DNA of 45,194 nucleotides from a virus. The notes under the pieces are model-generated. The model did no database searches, was not told the origin of the DNA, and saw nothing but the letters and a program-made list of their open reading frames with translations. The position numbers and the translations under genes are program-made. How positions within the stretch are numbered: position 1 is the stretch's first letter; each line of letters opens with the position of its first letter. Shown piece after piece: positions 2-20,481 of the stretch. Where the stretch lies: the IMG/VR virus record IMGVR_UViG_3300023184_002700, positions 1 to 45,194 of that record. The stretch is one strand, 5' to 3'.

Positions 2-715
2 GAAGGTGGCAATGTATTTAAACTAACTGATGGTCAATCTGCAACTACTCGCATCTCTAGAGAAAACGTAGTGCCGACTGTACAATGGTTAGAACAACTC
101 ACTGGACTTAATCTTGTTGATAATATGCTAGGATCAACTGGACGTAAAGAAACATCAGGTGATTTGGATCTAGGCATTGACGAAACTAAGATTACCAAAG
201 ACGTGTTGATACAACAGTTATTAAAACGTGGTATCAAAGCAGAAGATATCAAGAAATCAGGTGACAGCGTGCATGTTAAAACTCCTATCCTAGGTGATGC
301 AAGTAATGGATTTGTGCAGACAGACTTTATGTTTGGTGATCCAGAGTTTCAAAAATTTGCACTTAATACAGGTGAAAGTGACTATAAAGGTGTGCATCGT
401 GCTATATTGTTGGCCAGCATTGCCAAGGCACAGGGAATGAAATGGTCATACAAAAACGGCCTAATGGACCGTGAAACCAATGAAATTATCACTAAAAACC
501 CACAAGAAATAGCACAAAAGTTAATCAATGGCACCACTGCTGATCTTAGCAGTGTAGAGTCAATAGTTAAAAAGATTAAAGAATTACCTAATTATGAAGA
601 ACTAGTAAAAGATGCACGTGAAGCATTTGAGCGAGATAAACTAACCCTGCCAGAAGATACGGTATTACCTGGTACAGGTGCTTGGTATAGACAATTTATT
701 AATAGAAGAATATAA
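2..715 (+). CDS. Nucleotidyltransferase-fold protein, 5' truncated by window edge
   Basis: The frame is open from the left edge, so the true start lies outside; a GTG at 71 is internal. The motif GSTGRKETSGDLDLGID (about residues 39-55 of the visible part) has the G-S...D-x-D layout of the Pol-beta nucleotidyltransferase superfamily, with two aspartates that would bind metal. The rest is a charged alpha/beta and helical region. It ends one base before the next gene, which starts the series of MRAK-tagged proteins, so it probably belongs to the same late cassette. A second protein with this fold lies two genes downstream. The substrate (nucleotide transfer to protein, RNA or a small molecule) cannot be told from sequence. 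The fold call is fairly firm; the role is unknown. Confidence 0.6.
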   Translation, partial: EGGNVFKLTDGQSATTRISRENVVPTVQWLEQLTGLNLVDNMLGSTGRKETSGDLDLGIDETKITKDVLIQQLLKRGIKAEDIKKSGDSVHVKTPILGDASNGFVQTDFMFGDPEFQKFALNTGESDYKGVHRAILLASIAKAQGMKWSYKNGLMDRETNEIITKNPQEIAQKLINGTTADLSSVESIVKKIKELPNYEELVKDAREAFERDKLTLPEDTVLPGTGAWYRQFINRRI

Positions 716-716
716 T

Positions 717-1100
717 ATGAGAGCTAAAGAATTCCTTCCCGAAACTAAACTACACGGCACGTATGGTCACGTTACAACAAATGTCAGCGATGCTTTACCT
801 AGCGCATTTGTGCAACGAGAATTGCGTAATACTGATCCATATATGCAGTATCGATATAGTATGGCCCTAGCAGGTGCACGTGCCAATGCTGAATATGCTA
901 CAAACTTTGATCAAGAAACTGCCTGGGCTGAAAACTTTTCTATAGTGACCTATACTCCAGAAGACGAAGAAACTATCCGCCTGGCAGATGCGATGATGGG
1001 AGTTAGTGCTACTCGTGTCGCTAGCCAAGGTAGTACAGAAACAGATGTTAATGCTGTTAGCCCAGTGCCAGCTAAGAAGAAAAACAAATACGGGGTATAG
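717..1100 (+). CDS. MRAK-tagged phage protein, unknown function
   Basis: I chose the ATG at 717 because it directly follows the previous stop and gives the N-terminus MRAKEFLPE, which matches the starts of four neighbouring genes. The 127-residue product has no recognisable enzyme motif. It has an alanine-rich middle (ALAGARANAEYA, about residues 43-54), a conserved-looking stretch with VTYTPEDEETIRLADAMMG, and a basic tail (KKKNKYGV). The tag resembles T4 capsid-targeting peptides, so a small internal head protein is possible. That is inferred from the tag and neighbours only. The next gene begins at the base after the stop codon. Confidence 0.65.
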   Translation: MRAKEFLPETKLHGTYGHVTTNVSDALPSAFVQRELRNTDPYMQYRYSMALAGARANAEYATNFDQETAWAENFSIVTYTPEDEETIRLADAMMGVSATRVASQGSTETDVNAVSPVPAKKKNKYGV

Positions 1101-2120
1101 ATGAGAGCAAGAGACTTAACCAAAGGTAGCATAGCATATCACGATCAGTTAAATCCTGAAGTGTGGAAGGGCCGTGAGCTTCGTGTCGACGTCCGTTACA
1201 AACTATTAGAGATCGCTAAACGCTTTATTGAATACCTTGAAGTTCCAAACTTTAAATTAGAAGATGTGATCCTTCGTGGCAGTCTAGTCAATTACAACTA
1301 CACACAATATAGTGACTTTGATCTACATATAGTCACAGACTTTTCAACACTTGACTGCGATATCACTGAAGCATTTTATCTAGCTAAGAAAAAGATTTGG
1401 AATGATGAACACGATATCACTATCAAAGGCCACGAAGTAGAATTATATGTAGAAGACAAAGCGGCCAAGAATGTCAGCGAAGGCACATATAGTGTTTTAG
1501 ACGGTAAGTGGTTACGCACACCAAAGTTTAATCCACCAACTATCAATGATCGTGCTGTTAGTGCCAAAGCTCGTGACCTCATGACGCAGATCAATCGTGC
1601 TGTTAAACAAGGCAGCATAGAAGATATCACTAGATTACAAGATAAAATTAGAAATATGCGACAAGCAGGATTAGATGCGGGTGGTGAGTTCTCAACAGAG
1701 AATCTTGCCTTTAAGATCATACGCAATAAAAAATTCTTAGATAAATTATATAAAACTAAAAATTCTAAAGTTGATCAAGAATTAAGTTTAGATGAAGCTG
1801 AAACAGATTGGAGCCAACAGGCTGTTATACCTTGGTTGAAGTTTAGTAAAATGTTATCACAACAACTAACAGCTCTAGGATTCAAAGCATTTAAACAAAT
1901 AGATGGTGGATATGAATTCCATAAACGCCCCAATGATACTACAGATATATCATTGAGTATAGACTTAGAAACAGCGACTGAATTTGATTGGCAATGTTTA
2001 GTCACTGTAAACAACGCAACACAACCTAACGCTAATCCGCATCAAGGTGTGTTGCCAATGACAACCAGTTCGATCGCTACTGTAGTTGATTCAATTAAAA
2101 AAATGTGTGGAGATAATTAA
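1101..2120 (+). CDS. MRAR-tagged nucleotidyltransferase-fold protein
   Basis: The 339-residue product begins MRARDLTKGS, a looser version of the local tag. Residues 60-78 read GSLVNYNYTQYSDFDLHIV, a classic nucleotidyltransferase signature with G60-S61 and the metal-binding pair D72 and D74. About residues 100-230 are helical and charged, and the C-terminus (about 240-339) is a separate alpha/beta segment. The ATG follows the previous stop with no gap, and the stop overlaps the next ATG, so it is translated with its neighbours. If the tag is a packaging signal, this could be an enzyme injected with the DNA, loosely comparable to T4 Alt. That is an analogy of location, not of sequence. The substrate is unknown. 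Confidence 0.65.
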   Translation: MRARDLTKGSIAYHDQLNPEVWKGRELRVDVRYKLLEIAKRFIEYLEVPNFKLEDVILRGSLVNYNYTQYSDFDLHIVTDFSTLDCDITEAFYLAKKKIWNDEHDITIKGHEVELYVEDKAAKNVSEGTYSVLDGKWLRTPKFNPPTINDRAVSAKARDLMTQINRAVKQGSIEDITRLQDKIRNMRQAGLDAGGEFSTENLAFKIIRNKKFLDKLYKTKNSKVDQELSLDEAETDWSQQAVIPWLKFSKMLSQQLTALGFKAFKQIDGGYEFHKRPNDTTDISLSIDLETATEFDWQCLVTVNNATQPNANPHQGVLPMTTSSIATVVDSIKKMCGDN

Positions 2121-2674
2121 TGAGAGCTAAAGATTTTATAAATGAAGTTAAACAACGACTAGATACTAAATGCTGGAAAGGCAAGCACAAAGAAGGCACT
2201 AAGATCAAAGGTGGTGTTCGTGTCAACAACTGTGTGCCTAACGAAAGCGTTGATCCACAGGCGGAAGAAGAGTTTAATCTAATAGAGTCAATCATTGATA
2301 ATCTTGCAGTTCGCAATCAAGTTGATGCTGAAGTGATCTGGGAAGATCTTGAAGCACTCAACGATGACGAATTGTATGTATTTGCTGTTACACAAGAGCC
2401 AGTATTTGAAGATTGGCAAAAAGTCAATAAAAAAGACAAGACTGATGGTATGAGCAAAAAAGCTGTAGCATCTTATCGTCGTGAACATCCTGGTAGCAAG
2501 TTAAAGACTGCTGTGACTACCAAACCCAGTAAGTTAAAGCGAGGTAGTAAAGCCAGCAAGCGTCGTAAGAGCTATTGCAGTCGCAGTCGAGGTCAGATGA
2601 AAATGCACAACATCAGCTGTGCTAAAACTCCAGACAAGGCAATTTGTAAAGCACGTCGTCGTTGGAACTGCTAA
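2120..2674 (+). CDS. MRAK-tagged basic cysteine-containing protein (CWKG module and RRRWNC-type C-terminal domain)
   Basis: The 184-residue product begins MRAKDFINEV. Residues about 17-40 hold a module beginning KCWKGKHKEGT and ending NNCVPNES, which recurs in the metallopeptidase gene at 7648. The C-terminal 75 residues are strongly basic with spaced cysteines (SYRREHPGSKLKTAVT, RRKSYCSRSRGQMK, ARRRWNC). I recall this small domain in many phage and giant-virus proteins, where it has only a DUF name (DUF6321, from memory). High charge suggests nucleic acid binding, as expected for a DNA-associated head protein. Start and stop overlap the neighbouring genes by 1 base each. No catalytic motif is visible. 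Confidence 0.65.
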   Translation: MRAKDFINEVKQRLDTKCWKGKHKEGTKIKGGVRVNNCVPNESVDPQAEEEFNLIESIIDNLAVRNQVDAEVIWEDLEALNDDELYVFAVTQEPVFEDWQKVNKKDKTDGMSKKAVASYRREHPGSKLKTAVTTKPSKLKRGSKASKRRKSYCSRSRGQMKMHNISCAKTPDKAICKARRRWNC

Positions 2675-3975
2675 TGCGAGCACGCGAATTCATCTTTGAA
2701 TATAATCAACAGGCCACAGCACAACGCTTTGGTGATAAACTCTTACAGACTGCTGTAAAAGATCCTAGCCCAGAGATCTATAACATTTATTCTTTATTAA
2801 ATGCTCAAAAAGAGTTCAAAGACTTTAATCTAAGCCCAAATACTAAAACCAATATTCTAATCTCAATCATGCAGGCTATTGAAGGTGCAGATCCAACTAA
2901 GAATAAAGAATACACAGTGTTCCTTGCCAAGATGTATGCCCAAGGTGGTTGGGGTGCTAAGATCGAAGACTTAGAAAGCAAAGTTAAACCAGCACTAGAA
3001 AAATTCCATTTACTGAAACTTAAAAAGAAAATACCAAGTCCACGCAACGACATCATGCGCTACGGTGATCTAGCAGACTTTGTAGCGGTAATGGACGAAT
3101 ATCCTGATCCAGAAGAAAAGAAACAAGTAGACAAAGGTACTGCCAAGACAGTATTTGAAAATGATAGTGTGCGTATCATAGTTCCCAAAGATCAGAATGC
3201 CGCTTGCTACTATGGACAAGGTACACGTTGGTGCACAGCCAGCAGAACCAGCACTAATTATTTTGGTCATTACAGCAAAGATGGCCCGCTGTATATCTTA
3301 CTGCCTAAACAACCTAAACATGACGGTGAGAAATATCAACTACACTTTGCCAGTGAGCAGTTCATGGATGAAAATGACTATGGCGTCGAAAATATAGTCA
3401 ACTTATTAGAACACCGCTTTGGCGATTTAGTGCCATGGTTCCAAGAGAATGAACCAGCTATACGTGAGTGGGTCATGTTTGCTACCAATGAAGACTTAAA
3501 AGAACCCTTGATGCAGATTGGCGAAATCGTCATGGAACATGTCTGGGAAATGATCAATGATTGGGAACATGAAGATGACTATTGGTATGAATGGCTACGC
3601 AAAGAAGGCTATGTGTATCCAGAAGGACATGAAGAAGAAGGCATGATTGACTGGGACAAAGCCGCAGAAAATGACGTTGATTACCTCAACTGGAACTATG
3701 ATGCCAATGATTGGTATCTCGCAGCTAAAGAAGCTGTAGAAGTAAGTCCTACACAGGCACGTCGTGGTGCAGAAGAGGGCTATGAAGAAGAAGGTGAACT
3801 AATCACCCTAGGTGAACTGGAATTAATACCGGCCTACAATGTCCGCCAGGCATTCCTACGTAGCAGAGATGGTGACGGCGGATTAGAAGAATGGATACAC
3901 AAACACGTAATCATGCAGAAAGATGGCGACAAGTGGGTGGCTAAATTTTATACTCCGCCTAAGAAGGCACAATAA
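2674..3975 (+). CDS. MRAR-tagged protein with conserved GTRWCTA phage domain
   Basis: I moved the start from an upstream TTG at 2662 to the ATG at 2674, which overlaps the previous stop and gives MRAREFIFEY, matching the family tag. The 433-residue product has a helical N-terminal third. The central domain contains YYGQGTRWCTAS (about residues 185-196), GPLYILLP, and a QLHFASEQFMDENDYGV segment. I recall this combination from other large phage genomes, but no function is known to me. The C-terminal part is extremely acidic and rich in W, Y and E (many EEG, WEHEDD runs). No catalytic triad or metal site can be assigned with confidence. A packaged head protein is the best guess from tag and context. 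Confidence 0.65.
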   Translation: MRAREFIFEYNQQATAQRFGDKLLQTAVKDPSPEIYNIYSLLNAQKEFKDFNLSPNTKTNILISIMQAIEGADPTKNKEYTVFLAKMYAQGGWGAKIEDLESKVKPALEKFHLLKLKKKIPSPRNDIMRYGDLADFVAVMDEYPDPEEKKQVDKGTAKTVFENDSVRIIVPKDQNAACYYGQGTRWCTASRTSTNYFGHYSKDGPLYILLPKQPKHDGEKYQLHFASEQFMDENDYGVENIVNLLEHRFGDLVPWFQENEPAIREWVMFATNEDLKEPLMQIGEIVMEHVWEMINDWEHEDDYWYEWLRKEGYVYPEGHEEEGMIDWDKAAENDVDYLNWNYDANDWYLAAKEAVEVSPTQARRGAEEGYEEEGELITLGELELIPAYNVRQAFLRSRDGDGGLEEWIHKHVIMQKDGDKWVAKFYTPPKKAQ

Positions 3976-3976
3976 T

Positions 3977-4579
3977 ATGAGAGCAAAAGACTTTATTAAA
4001 GAGGCAGTAAATCCTCTAGCAACTAAATTAAAAAACGTAGCTACTCGCACGCAGGCCGCCAAGTATGATCCTGAGTATCAATACTATGGTGGTAAACGTC
4101 CGTTGCAAGAGCCTATACCGATGCAACCTCAACGACCCGTGGCTATTCCAGATACTAGTTCTATAGAAAAGACTGAACGTAATATTGAAATGGGTCAGCT
4201 TAGGAAAATCTTAGATCAATATATCAACACCCTGCCAACTAAAGAACAACAGATATTAAAAATGCGATACTATATGGGATTAACAATTAAACAAATAGCT
4301 GAGAGATATGGACAAACTGAATCAAATATTCGCGCATTTGAAGATAGGGCATTAAGAAGGATACGTATGAAAGATCGTATTAAAGGTCAATTATCGCACT
4401 ATGCACTGCAACAACAGCCACAACAACAATCTATACAACGTTCAGCTTCATATCAGACAGGTTATCAAGATGGTGCGTCAGGGACTCAATATGCCCCATC
4501 AACTGAATATGGTAGTCAGGATAAAGAATACTATCGCCAGGGATATGTAGCTGGCGATGAACAAAACGCGGGATTTTAA
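3977..4579 (+). CDS. MRAK-tagged sigma-70 region 4-like DNA-binding protein
   Basis: The chosen ATG at 3977 gives MRAKDFIKEA, the clearest copy of the local tag; the longer upstream reading overlaps the previous gene and loses it. The product has 200 residues. Residues about 72-135 match sigma-70 region 4: an acidic lead, LPTKEQQILKMRYYMGLTIK, a helix-turn-helix (QIAERYGQTESNIRAFEDRA) and RRIR. Region 4 normally contacts the -35 element. Regions 2 and 3, needed for -10 binding and melting, are absent, so it cannot act as a complete sigma factor. The C-terminus is Q-rich and then has two GY.DG/GYVAG-like repeats. It may steer host RNA polymerase, perhaps soon after injection if the tag causes packaging (inference). 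Confidence 0.72.
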   Translation: MRAKDFIKEAVNPLATKLKNVATRTQAAKYDPEYQYYGGKRPLQEPIPMQPQRPVAIPDTSSIEKTERNIEMGQLRKILDQYINTLPTKEQQILKMRYYMGLTIKQIAERYGQTESNIRAFEDRALRRIRMKDRIKGQLSHYALQQQPQQQSIQRSASYQTGYQDGASGTQYAPSTEYGSQDKEYYRQGYVAGDEQNAGF

Positions 4580-4657
4580 GAACATAACCCAGGACCGTTT
4601 GGTGTTATGAGGCGGCTGCTGCCTTGGAGGGATGCCTAGAGTGAGCAAAGAAAAATT

Positions 4658-5059
4658 ATGATAATATTAGAACTCGTTGAGAAATCTGCAGATCACAAGC
4701 CAGTGACCATCCACACCAACCCCTATTATAGAGGTGCCACTGTCTATCCTGGTGTAAAGTCTAGTCTACCAACAACGCAACTACCATTTGATAGTCTACG
4801 CATGTGGGAAAATGATAAAACACTAAGGACTAAGAAAGTCCGTGATTGGGTCAAGAATACCCTAATACCTATACTACAAGATCGTGGTCGCCTCAAGCCT
4901 ATGTTGGTATGGAAACGTAAAGATCAATACTATGTAATAGATGGTAATCATAGATACCTAGCATATAAAGCTGTTGGATTCCATGGTGACGTTCCTGTTC
5001 GAGTAGTGCCTGATGACATGGTTGCAATCAGCAACAAAATAGATAAAATAAATACCTAA
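4658..5059 (+). CDS. ParB/Srx-like nuclease-fold domain protein
   Basis: The 133-residue product holds a ParB N-terminal-like domain. A helix-rich lead is followed by IPILQDRGRLKPMLVWKRK and then DGNHRYLAYKAVG at residues 95-107, which corresponds to the D-G-x-H/E-R motif of ParB/sulfiredoxin folds. Only this domain is present, with no HTH, so plasmid-type partition is unlikely. Phage copies are usually annotated as ParB-like nuclease or NTP-binding domains. The 78-base gap upstream is the longest in this block and holds no clear gene. The N-terminus (MIILELVEKS) differs from the MRAK tag of its neighbours. The fold call is good; the role is unknown. Confidence 0.7.
   Translation: MIILELVEKSADHKPVTIHTNPYYRGATVYPGVKSSLPTTQLPFDSLRMWENDKTLRTKKVRDWVKNTLIPILQDRGRLKPMLVWKRKDQYYVIDGNHRYLAYKAVGFHGDVPVRVVPDDMVAISNKIDKINT
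5047..5054 (+). promoter_or_regulatory. Possible T4-type late promoter (AATAAATA)
   Basis: AATAAATA differs by one base from the T4 late -10 box TATAAATA. It ends 6 bases before the ATG at 5061, and no Shine-Dalgarno is visible between. With late-type spacing, transcription would begin at or within a base or two of the ATG. Confidence 0.35.
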
Positions 5060-5060
5060 T

Positions 5061-7640
5061 ATGAGATACGATCAGTTCAAAATTAACCTACTAGAAGCTA
5101 TCTTAGATGAAGCGGAAATGACGCCTAAGGCGTTCCAGGACTTCCTAGCCAGCCCTTTAGTCACGGGTATGAAGATGGGCTTTGAACTAGAAGCCTGTAT
5201 CCACAATGTGCGTGACTATGGTGACGGTGAAACAGAAAACGACATGGACTATGATGAACGTGTCACTGATATAGACAGTATCTTAGATTTCTTCCGTGGT
5301 GGTGATGATCCTAACGGTGATCGCACTATCAATACTTTACGCAATAATCTCTACGATGATTTCATGCAGTGGCAGGATGCTGAGTTTGATGACTACTTTA
5401 GGACTGATGAAGCACAAACTGATCTTAAAGAGTTCATCCGTGACTATCTAGAAGATAAAGACTACAATGATCGTCAAATGAAATTAGCATTTGACGACGC
5501 AGAAGAAGGCAAAGTCAGCGATGACTATGCAGAAGCTGAAATGTCAGGTATAGAAAAACTGCGTGATGAATGGAATGATAACGACACGGCCAGCTGGGAA
5601 AAATACTGTGACGTCATGGATATGAACTATATGAGTGATGTTTTAAACAAATACGAACACTACTTGTATTGGCCTTATACCACCTACAGCGACGATGAAG
5701 AATACCTCAACACAGAATATGTAGCAGATCAACTAAAAACTGAAACAGGAATTGATGCCTATGCTAGTGACAGCTATCACGGTACCAGTCGTGCCCGTGC
5801 CCAGGAAAAAGGACAGTGGATAATCGAACCTGATTCAAGTATCAGCACAGATGAAAGTGAAGATGGTGGCTTAGAGTTTGTCAGTCCAGCATTAGAAATC
5901 AATGAAGCACTTAAACAGATGCAACAGGTCCTAGAATTCATACGTGAATATGGATATACTAACACATCAACTGGCCTACATATCAATATATCAGTACCAG
6001 ACTTTAGCACAGACAATCTAGACTATGTCAAGCTGGCTATATTCCTAGGCGACAAGCACGTGCTTGAACAGTTCGATCGTCTAAGCAATCACTACTGTGA
6101 TGGTGCTTATAAGAAGATTGGTAATAAGATCCAGCAGATGAAAGGCACTGAAGTCAAAGCTGTCATGGACAAGATGAAAGAAGGCCTGACCCTAGCCGCA
6201 AGTAAGATCATACACACAGGTTATACCAGCAAATACACCAGTATCAATACCAAAGAAGGTTATATCGAATTCCGTAGTCCAGGTGGTGATTATCTAAATA
6301 AAACCAAAGAAGAATTAGTTAATACAGCTCTGCGTATGGCCTTGGCACTGCGTATCGCTACAGATCCAGAGATGTATAAAAAAGAATATCAAAAACGCTT
6401 ATACAAAGTATTAACTGATACTGGTGAGAAAGATGACCTAGTCAAGTTCAAAGACTACGTAGCCCGTTTCCAAACTGCTGATAAAGAAACAAGAGGCTAT
6501 ATCATACAGACTATACAAGCAGAACGTGAAGCACGCAAAGCCAAGAAGAAAAAGCCAGAAGGTGAGTCACGTCCTTATTGGATGGTGCGCCGCCGTGGTG
6601 ACACTCGTGGCGGTGGCATGGCAGTGTTTGCTGACACAGCTTATGATGCCGTTAAAGAAGTCGCTAAGTCATGGGGCCTAGATCCCATCTACTTGGTAGC
6701 GACACCAATGGCAGATGAACAACCACAAGGTGGTCCAGACAGTGGCAGTGAAGAACGAACATGGACCATAGCAGATGGCCTAGGTAGACCGGCAGGCACT
6801 GTGCAGGCAAGATCTAGTGATGAAGCCCTACGTATATATGGCAGCACCAACAACATTGACACAAGAGACTATGCGGCCGTAGCCAGTGATAGCAGTGAAG
6901 GTACTATGTTCGTCATAGACTATCGTGGAACGAAATATCGCCAACAGGCTAATAGCGCAGACGAAGCTAGAGCTCTGCTGTCAGCAAGGATTGGAGTTGA
7001 ACGTAATCTTCTCTGGGATATACAAGAAGAACCCCAAGGTATGGCAACAGGTGGTGTGACTGTAGATGGTAATGCTAGAGGCAACTATCAACTGGTAAAC
7101 AGTAATCGCAGTATTGATACCAGGATGAGTAATGTCACTAGAGAAGAAGCACACAGCACAGCACGCCGTATGGAACAAGAATATGGACTTGAAAGTGGTA
7201 GCATACACGTGACAAGGATCAATGATCAATCACAATCAACTACAGGTGTGGCTGGACATAACTGGCGCATCTATGATGTTCAAAACCCAGACTTATTCAC
7301 TGTAGTAGCTTCAGACAGTCGCACCAATGCTGTAGAACGTTGGGCTTATGTAAATCCAGAACGCCCAGCTGACATGGTTGATGCTGTGCCAGATGAAGGT
7401 GCTATGAAGTATGAGTTTACCATAGCACAACAGGCTATGAATCCAGATTCATTAAGCGACGGCGATAGATTCATCTACCCAGCAGAGCTATATCGTCAAA
7501 GAACAGGCCGTGACTTACCCGTCCGTAAAGTATGGGCCACTAGCAAAGAGCAAGCCATAGGCAAAGCACGTTCATTCTTCCCAAGAGATTTTGATACTAT
7601 CCCAGAAGATTGGCTAAAGATAAACGTAGTGGGTATATAA
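5061..7640 (+). CDS. Large amidoligase-like protein with repeated beta-alpha C-terminal modules
   Basis: The 859-residue product starts MRYDQFKINLLEAILDEA, a variant of the tag used by its neighbours. Residues about 38-46 (MGFELEACI) and the later GGLEFVSPALEI (about 268-279) and STGLHINISVP (about 302-312) fit the amidoligase (COOH-NH2 ligase) family, which links amino groups to carboxylates with ATP. Residues about 70-230 are an acidic insertion. From about residue 510 onward there are five or six divergent units of 40-50 residues. Each has a short beta strand pair and a helix with a (S/T)xDEA-like start (for example SADEARALL, SSDEALRIY, TREEAHSTA). The repeats suggest a binding or scaffold tail. 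It is likely a virion-associated enzyme; the substrate is unknown. Confidence 0.6.
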   Translation: MRYDQFKINLLEAILDEAEMTPKAFQDFLASPLVTGMKMGFELEACIHNVRDYGDGETENDMDYDERVTDIDSILDFFRGGDDPNGDRTINTLRNNLYDDFMQWQDAEFDDYFRTDEAQTDLKEFIRDYLEDKDYNDRQMKLAFDDAEEGKVSDDYAEAEMSGIEKLRDEWNDNDTASWEKYCDVMDMNYMSDVLNKYEHYLYWPYTTYSDDEEYLNTEYVADQLKTETGIDAYASDSYHGTSRARAQEKGQWIIEPDSSISTDESEDGGLEFVSPALEINEALKQMQQVLEFIREYGYTNTSTGLHINISVPDFSTDNLDYVKLAIFLGDKHVLEQFDRLSNHYCDGAYKKIGNKIQQMKGTEVKAVMDKMKEGLTLAASKIIHTGYTSKYTSINTKEGYIEFRSPGGDYLNKTKEELVNTALRMALALRIATDPEMYKKEYQKRLYKVLTDTGEKDDLVKFKDYVARFQTADKETRGYIIQTIQAEREARKAKKKKPEGESRPYWMVRRRGDTRGGGMAVFADTAYDAVKEVAKSWGLDPIYLVATPMADEQPQGGPDSGSEERTWTIADGLGRPAGTVQARSSDEALRIYGSTNNIDTRDYAAVASDSSEGTMFVIDYRGTKYRQQANSADEARALLSARIGVERNLLWDIQEEPQGMATGGVTVDGNARGNYQLVNSNRSIDTRMSNVTREEAHSTARRMEQEYGLESGSIHVTRINDQSQSTTGVAGHNWRIYDVQNPDLFTVVASDSRTNAVERWAYVNPERPADMVDAVPDEGAMKYEFTIAQQAMNPDSLSDGDRFIYPAELYRQRTGRDLPVRKVWATSKEQAIGKARSFFPRDFDTIPEDWLKINVVGI

Positions 7641-7643
7641 ATA
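7636..7643 (+). promoter_or_regulatory. T4-type late promoter box (TATAAATA)
   Basis: This is an exact match to the T4 late -10 box TATAAATA, overlapping the end of the amidoligase gene and lying 4 bases before the ATG at 7648. No Shine-Dalgarno lies between. An 8-base match in AT-rich DNA can occur by chance, but the placement just upstream of a late-type gene supports it. Confidence 0.45.
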
Positions 7644-7647
7644 CATA

Positions 7648-9111
7648 ATGCTAACAATAGACTTATTTGAAGAACTCGAAGGACCACCAGAGCCTACCTT
7701 GATTGATGCCCTGCGTGATTTCTTACCTGTGGCGATTAAACATCTCAAAATTAAAAAATTACCTAAGATTAAACTCTTACGTGCTGTTGATACCGAAAAC
7801 GTGCCATCATTTGGTAAATTCTCTAATGACGATCGTATAGTTCATGTAGATATTAAAAATCGCCACCCGAATGATATCCTACGCACCTTGGCACACGAGC
7901 TAACACACTACGCACAAGGTGAGCATGGCAAACTAGATGCAGACAGTTGGCATACAGGAAGTCCTGTAGAAGATCAAGCCAATGCTGAAGCTGGAGTGAT
8001 CATGCGTGAATTTAACAAACAATTTCCACAGTATATGGCGCTTAAACCTATAGTGTTCGAGGAGTGGAGCAAAAAATACAAAGATAGTATCAACTGTAGC
8101 CACCCTAGGGGTTTCAGCCAAAAGGCACACTGTGCTGGTAAGAAGAAACACAACGAAAGCGTTGAAATGGAAATGGTCTGTGAAGATTGTGGTATGTGCC
8201 AAACTCACGGCAATCTAAATGAGATCAAGAAAGGTGCTAAAGACTCAAATGGATATACCAAGTGCTGGCCAGGCAAGCATGCCGAAGGTACCAAGAAGGG
8301 CAAAAATGGCGGACAGGTACGCAACTGTGTGCCTAACGAAAGCGTAGCAGAAAGCGCAAATAAAGAATGCCCGCCAGCTACACAGGATATCACGCTTAAC
8401 CTAAAAAATCGACAAAAAGCCATCAATGAATATGGTTACGGTCCGCTTAATCCTGATCTACCTAACACCAAATTTTGGATGAAAAAGGTAGATGAGTGGA
8501 ACCTAGATTCAGCTGAAGAAGCCAAATCTAGCCTATGTGGTAACTGTGCGGCATTTGATCAGCGCAAGGCTACACTGGACTGTATAGCCCAAGGTATAGG
8601 TTCAGATCAGGGAGCAGATGATCCTACTATAGATGCTGGTGATCTAGGCTACTGCCGTTTCTTAAAATTCAAATGTGCTTCAAAAAGAACATGTGATGCT
8701 TGGGTCACAGGTGGACCACTTACTGAAGGCAAACACTGCGATGCTAAGAATGCAGTGCCTGAACTAAAAGCCGCATTAATAAAACGTAAATCAGAATTAA
8801 AGAATGTTGATGCTAAAGTCGCTTATGATAAGATCGATAAGATCATGACACGCATAGCACAAACATATAATATCAGTGGTCAAGAACTACATGACCTATG
8901 GACTGAACGCTATGGTGAGATCCCAGATACCTGGGTCTTAGATGAGAACTTTGCTGATGGCAAGGGTCCAGGACGACCAGGTGATAGTCAACGTCACGGT
9001 ATACCTAAAGGTGCTACCAAAGCAGAATTAGAAAAAGCCAGCCATGCCAAAGGTCGTAAAGGGCAACTAGCTCGCTGGCAACTTAATATGCGTAGGGGGA
9101 AGAAAAAATGA
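7648..9111 (+). CDS. HExxH metallopeptidase-domain protein with cysteine-rich modules
   Basis: The 487-residue product has a zincin-type site, HELTH, at residues 83-87, followed by an acidic helix with a candidate third ligand (EDQANAEAG). This fits a small SprT-like or M48-like peptidase domain in the first 140 residues. Next come NCSHPRGFSQKAHC, a CEDCGMC knuckle, and a second copy of the KCW.GKH.EGT...NCVPNES module seen at 2120. About residues 290-365 form another cysteine-rich unit (LCGNCAAFD, GYCRFLKFKC, CDAW). The end is basic (KGRKGQLARWQLNMRRGKKK). Such mosaics suggest a virion protein that binds DNA or metal. The last 48 bases have a diverged copy 162 bases downstream. Confidence 0.65.
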   Translation: MLTIDLFEELEGPPEPTLIDALRDFLPVAIKHLKIKKLPKIKLLRAVDTENVPSFGKFSNDDRIVHVDIKNRHPNDILRTLAHELTHYAQGEHGKLDADSWHTGSPVEDQANAEAGVIMREFNKQFPQYMALKPIVFEEWSKKYKDSINCSHPRGFSQKAHCAGKKKHNESVEMEMVCEDCGMCQTHGNLNEIKKGAKDSNGYTKCWPGKHAEGTKKGKNGGQVRNCVPNESVAESANKECPPATQDITLNLKNRQKAINEYGYGPLNPDLPNTKFWMKKVDEWNLDSAEEAKSSLCGNCAAFDQRKATLDCIAQGIGSDQGADDPTIDAGDLGYCRFLKFKCASKRTCDAWVTGGPLTEGKHCDAKNAVPELKAALIKRKSELKNVDAKVAYDKIDKIMTRIAQTYNISGQELHDLWTERYGEIPDTWVLDENFADGKGPGRPGDSQRHGIPKGATKAELEKASHAKGRKGQLARWQLNMRRGKKK

Positions 9112-9313: not shown

Positions 9314-10462
9314 GTGACCCTTTCTTGTAGCGCGATCGATACAGCACTACAAATCACCACTGATGGTGGTATTAAACCCTGTTGTCCGGGTGCGCATGAA
9401 TTAGGCAACCTACGCAGAGATCCAATCGACATCATCCTATCCAGCGACACTTATAAACAGGTAAGACAATCTATCGTCAACGGAACCAGTCCATATTGTA
9501 AAAACTGTGACATAAATGATGCCATCATTCCTAACAGCAGTCAACGACATACATTTAATCGAGCATTCTCTAGTCCAGGACATCAGCAATTAAAACAACT
9601 CGACATACGTTGGAGTAACCTATGTAATCTAACCTGCAGATATTGTTGTTCAAGTGACAGCAGTGAGTGGGCTAAATTAGAAGCAAAACCTATAGAATCT
9701 ATCAGCAGAGACTACGCCCAAGGCGTATTAGATCTAATCAAACAAAATAGAAACACGATCCAAGTGGTTTACCTACTAGGCGGAGAACCTTTATTACAAA
9801 AATACAACGAAGATCTATTAGATATATTAGATAATAAAACACAGATCGACATAGTCACCAATCTCAATGTGCGATTAGATAACAATAGAGTCTATGAAAA
9901 GTTAAAATCATTTCCGCATGTGCGTTGGAATGTCAGTGTCGATAACATAGGTGATCGATTTGAGTATGTCAGGCATGGCGCCAATTGGGATTTATTATTA
10001 AACAACATCGATACCCTGAAGCAAGACTTTGGTCAAGCTCACATATTCCTACATCCAGTATATAGTATTTGGAGTGCATTTTCTCTGGCAGAGTATTTAG
10101 ATTTCACGCAGCGATTAGGTGTAGAAGTTTGGTGGCAATTGGCCAACGAAGATGAACAGTTTCCTGATCTCATACGTGGATTTAATCTATTCAAACATAG
10201 TGCTAGAATAAAAGAATCTGCTGGCAAACAGATAGATCAGTTAGGAAGGGTAGACTACCGATCAAAGAAATTCCTCGGGCAGGTCAGAGATGGATTACTA
10301 GCCACCACATCTGTGCTAGGTAGGGCAGAAAAGTTCTTATCCTGGACCGCACGAAACGAACAGCAATTAAAACCAAAGTATCCATTCAAAGATCTTTGGT
10401 CTGAGTTAAATACTTTATTAGTAGAGGATTTACAGCATGAACAATTGGAACGTCTACGTTAG
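9314..10462 (+). CDS. Radical SAM protein with N-terminal SPASM/twitch-like cysteines
   Basis: The 382-residue product starts at GTG 9314 with an upstream AAAGGA. Residues 104-111 carry C-NLT-C-RY-C, the CX3CX2C motif that binds the radical SAM [4Fe-4S] cluster. YLLGGEPLL matches the GGE SAM-binding motif. Before the core, cysteines at about 23-24 and 62-65 (KPCCPG, YCKNC) resemble the auxiliary-cluster part of SPASM/twitch proteins, here at the N-terminus rather than the C-terminus. A related protein with the same layout is encoded at 19348. The substrate is unknown; candidates include a peptide or a glycan precursor. It overlaps the next gene by 26 bases. It is not QueE, which is encoded separately. 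Confidence 0.85.
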   Translation: MTLSCSAIDTALQITTDGGIKPCCPGAHELGNLRRDPIDIILSSDTYKQVRQSIVNGTSPYCKNCDINDAIIPNSSQRHTFNRAFSSPGHQQLKQLDIRWSNLCNLTCRYCCSSDSSEWAKLEAKPIESISRDYAQGVLDLIKQNRNTIQVVYLLGGEPLLQKYNEDLLDILDNKTQIDIVTNLNVRLDNNRVYEKLKSFPHVRWNVSVDNIGDRFEYVRHGANWDLLLNNIDTLKQDFGQAHIFLHPVYSIWSAFSLAEYLDFTQRLGVEVWWQLANEDEQFPDLIRGFNLFKHSARIKESAGKQIDQLGRVDYRSKKFLGQVRDGLLATTSVLGRAEKFLSWTARNEQQLKPKYPFKDLWSELNTLLVEDLQHEQLERLR

Positions 10463-15778: not shown

Positions 15779-16510
15779 ATGAGAGACCATCTATTAGACA
15801 TCGTTAAAAACACTTATGGCTTGGGCATTATTGACCTAGTTAAAGTATCAGGTACAGACACAGAAACCAATATCGAAGCACTAGCAGAAGACCGCAGTGT
15901 TATTGTTCAGGCCAAACTAAACGGCCCAGTAGCAGAATTTATTGGCACGTTTGGTATGCCGAACCTAGCAAAATTAAACACTATCTTAGGTATTCCAGAA
16001 TACAAAGACAATGCTAAGATTTCGATTACCAAACAAGATCGCAATGGCGAACAAGTAGCAGTGGGATTACACTTTGAAAATGCCGCAGGTGACTTTAAGA
16101 ACGATTATCGTTTTATGAGCCAAGAGATTGTCAATGACAAACTCAAAACAGTCAAGATGCGAGCAGTCACATGGAACGTTGAATTTGAACCAACAGTGGC
16201 TAATATCCAAAGACTTAAATTCCAAGCAAGTGCTAATGCAGAAGAAGCAAACTTTACTGCTAAGACTAATAACAGTAACTTAGAATTAAGTTTTGGTGAT
16301 CATAGCAGTCACGCAGGCAATTTTACGTTCCAAGCGGGTGTTACTGGCACACTAAGTAAAAATTGGTCATGGCCAGTTAACGCTGTATTAAGTATCTTAA
16401 ACCTAGCAGGTGATAAGAAATTTAGTATCAGTGATGAAGGTGCGGCACAGATCACTGTTAATTCAGGACTAGCAACGTATAACTATATCTTACCAGCACA
16501 GAGCAAGTAA
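15779..16510 (+). CDS. 45: Sliding clamp, T4 gp45 type
   Basis: The 243-residue product is near the length of T4 gp45 (228) and has the expected mix of beta strands and helices with a C-terminal PIP-contacting end (NYILPAQSK). I recognise it as the DNA polymerase processivity factor of T4-like phages from pattern and from its place just after gene 43. In T4 the trimeric clamp tethers gp43 to DNA and also activates late transcription. It has a strong ribosome-binding site (AAAGGAG) and its own promoter, in line with high need. The stop overlaps the next ATG (TAATG). Confidence 0.85.
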   Translation: MRDHLLDIVKNTYGLGIIDLVKVSGTDTETNIEALAEDRSVIVQAKLNGPVAEFIGTFGMPNLAKLNTILGIPEYKDNAKISITKQDRNGEQVAVGLHFENAAGDFKNDYRFMSQEIVNDKLKTVKMRAVTWNVEFEPTVANIQRLKFQASANAEEANFTAKTNNSNLELSFGDHSSHAGNFTFQAGVTGTLSKNWSWPVNAVLSILNLAGDKKFSISDEGAAQITVNSGLATYNYILPAQSK

Positions 16511-17103
16511 TGACGTTTGGCCGTTGGGCACACTTAGGACATAGGTTAGGTGAATGTTGGGTTGATGAAGTAAATGATAAAACCTACGTTCATATACCTA
16601 AAAACGCCAGTAGTTTTGTCAAGGGTGTGCTAATCGGTAGTGGTGGATTTTGGCATCACAGTGAAACATTAATCAATAGCAGTGAAAATTTAATTGTTTT
16701 ACGTGATCCTATCGACCGTTGGGTAAGTGGTATTACACAATATCTACATAACAGTAATCAAATCGATATGCCTACAGAACTGATTTTTGATAAGATAACC
16801 TTTGATGATCACACAGATCTACAGACATATTTTTTACAAGGTGTTGATTTAACCAACTCTACATTTATGTTTGTAGATAAAAATTTACGGGCTAATTTAT
16901 CAGATTGGATTTATGATCATGGTTATAGAACCAATGTTGATATTGCCATCGAATATAATGCCAGCAGTGAGGATGATCGTGCAACAACTAAAGACTACTA
17001 CACTAAACTACTTGACCAAACCCCAGAATTTGTGTTAAAATTACAACAGCACTTTGAAGAAGACTATAAACTAATCGGTAAAGTAAAATTCTATGGAAAT
17101 TGA
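16510..17103 (+). CDS. Sulfotransferase-family protein
   Basis: The 197-residue product has the two sulfotransferase motifs. The first is YVHIPKNASSFVKGVL at about residues 26-41, the PAPS 5'-binding loop as in the carbohydrate sulfotransferase (Sulfotransfer_2) family. The second is NLIVLRDPIDRWVSGI at about 59-74, the 3'-phosphate loop with R and S. The rest is helical. It would transfer sulfate from PAPS to a sugar or peptide, perhaps on the host surface or virion. No PAPS-synthesis genes are visible. It sits between the clamp and the DNA transglycosylase, overlapping both, so it is expressed with replication genes. Confidence 0.68.
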   Translation: MTFGRWAHLGHRLGECWVDEVNDKTYVHIPKNASSFVKGVLIGSGGFWHHSETLINSSENLIVLRDPIDRWVSGITQYLHNSNQIDMPTELIFDKITFDDHTDLQTYFLQGVDLTNSTFMFVDKNLRANLSDWIYDHGYRTNVDIAIEYNASSEDDRATTKDYYTKLLDQTPEFVLKLQQHFEEDYKLIGKVKFYGN

Positions 17104-18824: not shown

Positions 18825-19348
18825 AGCGTGATTATACAGATGGAGTGAAAGAAAGCATAACATTCTTTACTGGGATAGAGATTGAACGGACTCCAGCCTA
18901 CGGTATGATGACATTGTTTGTAGTGGGCACACAACGGGCAGAAGAAATCATCGCACTAGCTAAAGAAAAAGAGTGTAAGCACATTTACTTTGGTGCTAAT
19001 CAAAGTTTTCCAAAGATCGACAGTGATGACGCTAGAGTTTGGAAACAGTGGGAAGTCATGATACGAACGTGTCTTGATACAGACTATTGGTGCACTTTAG
19101 ATTTGGACATAATCTGTGTAGAAGGACTATTAGAAGGCCCATTGGTAGAGTATCGCAGATTTATTCCGCAATTGAGTGTAAAAATTCCATACTTGGCACA
19201 GCTAGGATATAATGCTACTCTTAAAATAGATGATAAGGATTTTGATGCTACAAATCCAGGTGTTTGGTGCCATCGCTTACGTAATTTAACAACAACAGAG
19301 AGTTTTACTGATTGGGATCAATACGGTAAAGATGAGATTATTAAGTAA
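18821..19348 (+). CDS. Conserved-looking phage protein, unknown function
   Basis: The 175-residue product has an alpha/beta N-terminus (TLFVVGTQRAEEIIALAK), a central CKHIYFGANQSFP, and DTDYWCTLDLDIICVEGL, where a D-x-D pair could bind a metal. It overlaps both neighbours by 1-4 bases, between the coiled-coil protein and the second radical SAM gene. I do not recognise a named family. The beta-strand then DxD layout could suit a glycosyltransferase-A-like or nuclease fold, but the evidence is thin. Confidence 0.6.
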   Translation: MKRDYTDGVKESITFFTGIEIERTPAYGMMTLFVVGTQRAEEIIALAKEKECKHIYFGANQSFPKIDSDDARVWKQWEVMIRTCLDTDYWCTLDLDIICVEGLLEGPLVEYRRFIPQLSVKIPYLAQLGYNATLKIDDKDFDATNPGVWCHRLRNLTTTESFTDWDQYGKDEIIK

Positions 19349-20481
19349 TGGACCCAAAGAGAAAGTATGTATTACTAACTCAATCTAAACATTTTTGTGC
19401 GGCGCCTTGGACTAATTTATACCTAGAAACTAATGGTGATATTCTAACCTGTTGTGTTGGTCGAACTGTTTTGGGGAATATTAGAACTCATACTTTAAAA
19501 GAAATTCTGAATAATAATATAACAAAAGAAATAAAGCAAAAATTAATTTTAGATCAACCACACCGTAATTGCATTAACTGTGATATGTTTACAGCAGACC
19601 GGCCAGCCGATGCCTGGCAACGAGGACATTATAACAACATCGGCAAGAAGGTAGATATAGATTATGATGATGTTAGTAGTTTTGTTCTTGGTGCTGTTGA
19701 TGCCCGGTGGAGCAATACCTGTAATTTTAAATGTATCTATTGCGATCCAAAATATAGTAGCAGTATAGAAAAAGAATTAAATGTAATATATAGCAACGGT
19801 GATATAGGTAATCAACAGCTATTAGAATTTATACTAACCAATCAAAATAGCATAGTTGAGATCTATCTCGCCGGCGGTGAACCATTATTAATGAAAGAAA
19901 ATAGAGAATTTTTAGAACGTTATACAAATACTAATACTAGACTGAGAATTAATACTAATCTTAGTAACATACATGAAAAAAATAGCATATTAGATAAAAT
20001 TAAAAAATTTAAAAATATATTATGGACTGTTAGCATAGAAAATACCAATTCAAGATATGAATACACCAGATATAGCAGTAATTGGGATCAATTCTTGATT
20101 AATTTACAGGCCATAAAAGATCTAGGGCAAGAAATCAGATTTAACATGGTATACTTTATAGGCAATGCAATGACATTTTGTGATGATTTAGAATTATTAA
20201 AATCACTGGGCACAAATATTGGAATCAGCGTAGTCCCAGTAGTTGGTCATGATCCAATTAGCTCAAGAAATCTCCCCAACCATTTAAAAGCAACTGCACA
20301 AGAAAATCTAAATAAATTATCAAAAAGTCTTGCAAATGATACTAGTTTATGTAATAATATTAATAATTGTCTTAAAGAGCTGAACAAAGATCCTAACGGA
20401 TTAGATTATAAACAATATTTTGATTCTTTAGATGCTAAAAGAGGAACCAATTGGAAAACAGTATTCCCGGAGTTAGTATGA
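19348..20481 (+). CDS. Second radical SAM protein with N-terminal SPASM-like cysteines
   Basis: The 377-residue product has C-NFK-C-IY-C at residues 125-132 (CX3CX2C) and an AGGEPLL SAM-binding motif. Upstream are FCAAPW (C17), LTCC (C35-C36) and NCINC (C75, C78), an auxiliary-cluster-like set at the N-terminus, the same architecture as the protein at 9314. Recognised SPASM proteins often modify peptides, but no small precursor peptide is evident next to it. Glycosyltransferase and aminotransferase genes shortly downstream suggest a part in sugar or surface chemistry instead. The gene is AT-rich compared with its neighbours. It overlaps the next gene by 4 bases. Confidence 0.83.
   Translation: MDPKRKYVLLTQSKHFCAAPWTNLYLETNGDILTCCVGRTVLGNIRTHTLKEILNNNITKEIKQKLILDQPHRNCINCDMFTADRPADAWQRGHYNNIGKKVDIDYDDVSSFVLGAVDARWSNTCNFKCIYCDPKYSSSIEKELNVIYSNGDIGNQQLLEFILTNQNSIVEIYLAGGEPLLMKENREFLERYTNTNTRLRINTNLSNIHEKNSILDKIKKFKNILWTVSIENTNSRYEYTRYSSNWDQFLINLQAIKDLGQEIRFNMVYFIGNAMTFCDDLELLKSLGTNIGISVVPVVGHDPISSRNLPNHLKATAQENLNKLSKSLANDTSLCNNINNCLKELNKDPNGLDYKQYFDSLDAKRGTNWKTVFPELV

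Follow-up and report, generated by a model that had tools for sequence, protein, structure and literature searches.

In bacteriophage T4, a short N-terminal capsid targeting sequence carries internal and also foreign proteins into the core of the head and is removed by the protease gp21, and the internal proteins (IPs), once injected, counter host defence (PMC9958956, PMC5694885, PMC3012670, PMC9391042). T4 IPII and IPIII start with MKTYQEFIAE and ipI encodes MKTFKEFTSTTTPVSTITEA, while Alt, the head-packaged and injected RNA polymerase ADP-ribosyltransferase, starts with MELITELFDED. Likewise, the N-terminal packaging signal of P1 DarB and the ejection propeptides of phiKZ-type phages, the latter mostly >100 residues (PMC5694885), put injected proteins into heads. 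Here we report on a run of genes at positions 2 to 9111 of the IMG/VR virus record IMGVR_UViG_3300023184_002700, a 45,194-base fragment of a T4-superfamily phage (the whole fragment is referred to as the window), several of which encode a common N-terminal tag. With a probability of roughly 0.85, the run represents a late-expressed capsid-targeting-sequence cassette, i.e. a set of effectors that would be packaged in the head and injected with the DNA.

The cassette genes are as follows (a slash marks the predicted cleavage position):

2-715, + strand: 5'-truncated nucleotidyltransferase-like gene (EGGNVFK...GSTGRKETSGDLDLGID); homologues PA5oct EST35_0231 and Atu_ph07 gp065
717-1100, + strand: tagged gene 1, MRAKEFLPE/T, 127 amino acids (aa), uncharacterised body
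1101-2120, + strand: tagged gene 2, MRARDLTKG, nucleotidyltransferase-like (phrog_36119, 4.7e-51; weak Pfam NTP_transf_2 match, below cut-off)
2120-2674, + strand: tagged gene 3, MRAKDFINE/V, Cys-Trp (CW) module and basic Cys domain DUF6321
2674-3975, + strand: tagged gene 4, MRAREFIFE/Y, GTRWCTA protein, 433 aa; PA5oct homologue EST35_0205
3977-4579, + strand: tagged gene 5, MRAKDFIKE/A, sigma-70 region 4-like (Pfam Sigma70_r4, 9e-15)
4658-5059, + strand: ParB-like gene (weak ParB matches), candidate variant tag MIILELVE
5061-7640, + strand: amidoligase, 859 aa (Pfam Amidoligase_2, 4.1e-14), long IPI-like tag MRYDQFKINLLEAILDE/A
7648-9111, + strand: zinc-protease-like gene (HELTH) with CW module, Alt-type tag MLTIDLFEE, start MLTIDLFEELEG

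A first-pass annotation, made from the letters of the window alone, had listed five consecutive genes starting MRA[KR][DE][FL], and all five starts are present, with ATGs at 717, 1101, 2120, 2674 and 3977. Given the amino-acid composition of the window, 0.0004 such starts are expected among the 67 called open reading frames (ORFs), and the probability of five or more is ~1e-19 (2e-18 with every candidate ATG as a trial). Three of these ORFs have alternative starts upstream (678, 2662 and 3923), for which the tag ATG is likely the real start. The sixth start that it had set beside the five, MRYDQFKINLLEAILDEA, is present at 5061. Its claim that such starts are absent from all other genes holds for the exact tag, which is found on no window gene beyond the five, but not for variants; these occur on three more genes of the run, i.e. 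MRYDQFKINLLEAILDE (5061), MLTIDLFEE (7648) and, as a weaker candidate, MIILELVE (4658). The tagged genes in this single run number at least 6 and probably 8-9. Moreover, the cassette does not end at 7700 as had been proposed: it extends to 9111, because orthologues of the 7648 gene in relatives carry such starts (MRTIDLFEEM, MLALELFEEL, MLTVELFEEL or MNLFEMFD), and the left-edge gene (2-715) is counted as a member because of its place in relatives.

The tag closes with (I/L)xE at 717, 2120, 2674 and 3977, and at 5061 through the longer tag. At 1101 this end is missing (DLTKG), so that the targeting half is kept and the cleavage Glu is absent. Among the GTRWCTA proteins (the window protein and six relatives) M1, R2, A3, R4, F6 and E9 are invariant; the AlphaFold model of this protein has a mean pLDDT of 65, with the core <50. 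The amidoligase tag is conserved in relatives, and the Atu_ph07 homologue, gp196, is encoded near the portal gene. A different ParB-like protein in relatives opens with MRA[KQ][ED]FI[LV]EAV.

The likeness to the T4 capsid targeting sequence suggested in the first-pass annotation stands: position, length and the (I/L)xE end are the same, and as in IPI, IPII and IPIII a start of about ten residues, with a basic residue at position 2, an F[IL]xE end and the gp21-type cleavage rule, is common to unrelated proteins. In the complete T4 genome a strict tag pattern matches 3 of 278 ORFs, namely ipII and ipIII (annotated as internal virion protein) as well as gene 61.1. What did not hold is the picture of one common tag with a cleavage site, since there are three sub-types and at least one tagged gene (1101) lacks the site. 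Because ipII/ipIII, ipI and alt match the FIxE, the long MRYDQF...ILDEA and the DLFEE form, respectively, each sub-type has a T4 counterpart; specifically, the amidoligase shares the longer tag variant with IPI, and the Alt start resembles MLTIDLFEELEG as well as MFLTELFE and MLTLELFED of relatives.

There are also clear differences. Unlike in the T4 internal proteins, Glu is at residue 9 instead of 10 in the window consensus MRA[KR][DE]F[IL]xE, at least six and probably 8-9 genes lie in one run, one of them without a cleavage site, and the bodies are mostly enzyme-like and up to 859 aa long; no cassette protein has a Pfam or PHROG match to IPI, IPII or IPIII. Unlike Alt, the bodies behind the Alt-type tags are protease-like, NMNAT-like or uncharacterised. 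No ADP-ribosyltransferase was found in the window, with no Pfam or PHROG match to one among the cassette proteins, and a PHROG named Alt-like transcription activator hits the sigma-like protein at 0.0085 only. No motif in common with the P1 DarB or phiKZ-type signals was seen. As a separate observation, T4 gene 61.1 (54 aa, hypothetical; T4 18966-19130, L290:467-631) opens with MKTFKEFIKED, a full capsid-targeting-type sequence, and from this start we predict that it is a further packaged T4 protein.

The window DNA polymerase is closest to those of the jumbo phages Phosso of Sinorhizobium (51%) and Atu_ph07 of Agrobacterium (46%). Eight related contigs were identified through the GTRWCTA protein and more through the polymerase, the amidoligase and the nucleotidyltransferase, and the comparison of tag-bearing genes across related phages, which had been proposed as a check, shows the tag to be a swappable module. 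In the main related contigs the strict pattern occurs in 46 of 1421 ORFs, compared to 1.0 +/- 0.9 with shuffled N-termini, and the Alt-type pattern M...[DE]LF[DE] occurs 25 times (1.3 +/- 1.1 shuffled). Across all related loci the tagged proteins form 22 body clusters, of which one or two are probably chance matches; two matches, one to a 61-aa ORF in contig G010 and one to a dCMP-deaminase-like protein (MKTAEIFAECS, position 106528 of contig G014), were rejected as false positives of the pattern search, in line with the shuffle expectation. Tagged bodies include the GTRWCTA protein, GNAT-like, Fe/Mn superoxide dismutase and ParB-like proteins and several small basic proteins. From the deoxynucleotidase/nucleotidyltransferase pair to the DNA polymerase the outline of the gene order is conserved, while the genes between are swapped and most of them tagged. 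The 5'-deoxynucleotidase in the cassette of relatives keeps no more than the targeting half of the tag, with no (I/L)xE at its end.

The cassette of a related contig has the tagged Fe/Mn superoxide dismutase at its downstream end (L029:18896-19426; MRACEFLTESEEKLEL..., Pfam Sod_Fe_C 3e-22), and this enzyme is, judged by its start, possibly head-packaged. The Cys-Trp module is present within two cassette proteins of the window (2168-2242, CWKGKHKEGTKIKGGVRVNNCVPNESV; 8260-8345, CWPGKHAEGTKKGKNGGQVRNCVPNESV) and also in many tagged proteins of relatives, frequently right behind the tag.

The prediction that the set is packaged in the head gains support from other phages, since homologues of three members have been detected in virions by mass spectrometry. 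The PA5oct homologues of the GTRWCTA protein (EST35_0205, starting with MKLFEVFTLYED) and of the first nucleotidyltransferase (EST35_0231, 153120-153833) are both annotated as detected by electrospray ionisation tandem mass spectrometry (ESI-MS/MS), and S-CREM2 ORF156, a homologue of the 1101 protein, is listed in the virion proteome in Table 3 of PMC10665884. According to the same table, S-CREM2 virions contain a SAM hydrolase, a kinase and a cytidylyltransferase, which open with MKDFDSFLEE, VKRFDAFLTE and MKNFSSFLTE, respectively. In a later check, the NMNAT reported from S-SCSM1 virions by mass spectrometry (PMC9602691) was found to open with MKSFLQFLKEA and its P-SSM2 homologue with MKSFSQFLTET. 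These virion enzymes of the T4-like cyanophages S-CREM2 and S-SCSM1 thus each start with [MV]K.[FL]..FL.E, while their genes are more scattered than those in the window. The examined passages of the two papers contain no mention of the tag. For Atu_ph07, PMC6102473 states, at the level of the cluster, that 29 virion proteins were detected from the gene cluster CDS 31-76, which includes gp065, the homologue of the 2-715 gene, and a run of paralogues (gp056-gp062) starting with M[RK]W[EQDH]QL[TNI]E.

As side observations, S-CREM2 ORF12, annotated as a CRISPR-Cas9 nuclease and found in virions (L280:7704-10313), has an internal tag-like LRFASFMAEAA near its N-terminus, and the idea that Atu_ph07 gp056-gp062 (YRGM/YRGI) are ADP-ribosyltransferases was dropped, with no Pfam or PHROGs support for the three that were scanned.

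Two octamers, which we take to be the core of the T4 late promoter, are present upstream of cassette genes:

5048-5055, + strand: ATAAATAC, T4 late-promoter-like, 13 nucleotides (nt) upstream of the amidoligase ATG
7636-7643, + strand: TATAAATA, T4 late-promoter consensus, 12 nt upstream of the ATG at 7648

On the + strand of the window TATAAATA and ATAAATAC occur only at these two genes (5048 and 7636-7644), in each case 11-13 nt ahead of the start. In the relative G016, a 188.8-kb contig with a nucleotidyltransferase 74% identical to that of the window, the same octamers lie upstream of several tagged genes and of genes that, from sequence and position, are putative portal, tail sheath and tail tube genes. 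The octamers fit late expression of the cassette together with head genes, although two sites are few.

On this basis we infer the following for the window phage. The N-terminus of each protein would be this phage's own form of the T4 capsid targeting sequence, by which the protein docks in the prohead scaffold core, and a gp21-type protease would cut behind the (I/L)xE closing most tags. The mature enzyme would then be trapped with the DNA and later ejected into the host, where it may act ahead of phage gene expression. The 1101 nucleotidyltransferase (MRARDLTKG) would be packaged and yet retain its tag; to judge from their starts, the 1101 family and the deoxynucleotidase probably both retain their tags if packaged.

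Several points weigh against this interpretation. The virion evidence comes from homologues in other phages. Neither a gp21-type protease nor a gp23-type capsid gene is encoded within the 45-kb fragment, and neither was found in the first set of related contigs. The search for a protease, another suggested check, was thus negative in the fragment itself and positive in the relative G016, which encodes both gp21 and gp23, as do PA5oct and, with T4-type versions, Phosso and Atu_ph07; the protease gene of the window phage would lie outside the fragment. In nearly all close orthologues of the 1101 protein DL[TV]KG replaces F[IL]xE, and the cleavage Glu is missing from every one of them. For PA5oct there is no significant enrichment of the pattern among proteins detected by mass spectrometry (2/93 vs 3/391, p=0.25), and one of the three non-virion matches is in the position of the gp22 scaffold and would be digested during maturation. 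For S-CREM2, a relaxed T4-like pattern matches 4 of 52 virion proteins and none of 172 others (p=0.0027), but this pattern was loosened after the N-termini had been seen, and the strict one matches none there. Finally, the authors of both cyanophage studies consider that non-structural virion proteins may be carry-over (PMC10665884, PMC9602691).

Among the alternatives, the one that survives best, and which we still regard as improbable, is that the tag is a virion-assembly signal for neck, tail or baseplate and that the proteins are parts of the particle and not injected effectors. Some tag-like virion proteins of PA5oct indeed have no assigned location, and the label structural covers head or tail; however, most tagged bodies resemble enzymes or regulators, the closest known tags (T4 IPs, Alt and gp24) all belong to gp21-cleaved proteins of the head or core, and a small PA5oct protein encoded beside the portal gene also has a tag-like start. 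Slightly less probable still is a handle with a function outside the virion, e.g. one that serves a phage chaperone, a degradation pathway or localisation within the infected cell. The absence of a cleavage site in MRARDLTKG and the origin of the proteomic evidence in other phages would suit such a handle, whereas the homologues detected in virions, the late-promoter octamers and the match to the T4 IP and Alt tags argue against it. That the similarity is a feature of the DNA, i.e. a recombination site or a translation-initiation context, as the tight packing of the genes, whose stop and start codons overlap, and the swapped neighbouring gene content might suggest, is very improbable, since the synonymous sites of the Ala and Phe codons vary freely (GCA 21, GCT 19, GCC 8 and GCG 6 in 54 distinct MRAx[DEQN][FLI] starts; TTT 28 and TTC 12) and the 20 nt upstream of the tags show a weak purine bias and otherwise little conservation. 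Selection therefore acts on the amino acids of the tag.

Returning to the capsid-targeting interpretation, we propose with moderate confidence that T4-superfamily phages have in common a code for head loading whose sub-types are interchangeable, such that a variable gene cassette constitutes a magazine of injected enzymes, the tag of some members being uncleavable, and that orphan genes delivered with the DNA can be predicted from sequence alone. The magazine would contain nucleotidyltransferases, a sigma-like factor, an amidoligase and a protease-like protein in the window, and superoxide dismutase, deoxynucleotidase and NMNAT-like enzymes in relatives. The principle is already that of T4; what differs is the consensus with its spacing, how large the cassette is and which enzymes it encodes, the sub-types side by side and the uncleavable variants. 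We found no report of the code in cyanophages or Atu_ph07-like phages in the open-access literature, subscription papers being outside the search. Most genes of large phages have no known function and the proteins that enter the host with the DNA are seldom identified, and an N-terminal code readable from sequence would identify the first-wave effectors. For cyanophage proteomics, the code is relevant to the question of whether SAM hydrolases, kinases and NMNAT-like enzymes in virions are cargo or contamination, and the tagged set provides ready candidates for host-takeover or counter-defence enzymes.

The cassette also contains a non-coding element:

4582-4646, + strand: 65-nt non-coding element (ACATAACCCAGGACCGTTTGGTGTTATGAGGCGGCTGCTGCCTTGGAGGGATGCCTAGAGTGAGC), almost identical in at least nine related contigs

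Each contig has one copy, located within the cassette close to the amidoligase gene, and the flanking genes differ. Rfam gave no match in the window or in the element, which has no exact match in bacterial genomes and folds no better than shuffled sequences. It includes a CATAAC/GTTATG stem, and a leader peptide of 10 residues (MRRLLPWRDA) could be translated from it. Outside the cassette, two genes with CxxxCxxC-type motifs (9314-10462 and 19348-20481) are radical SAM-like, and together with a sulfotransferase-like gene (16510-17103) they lie among DNA metabolism genes.

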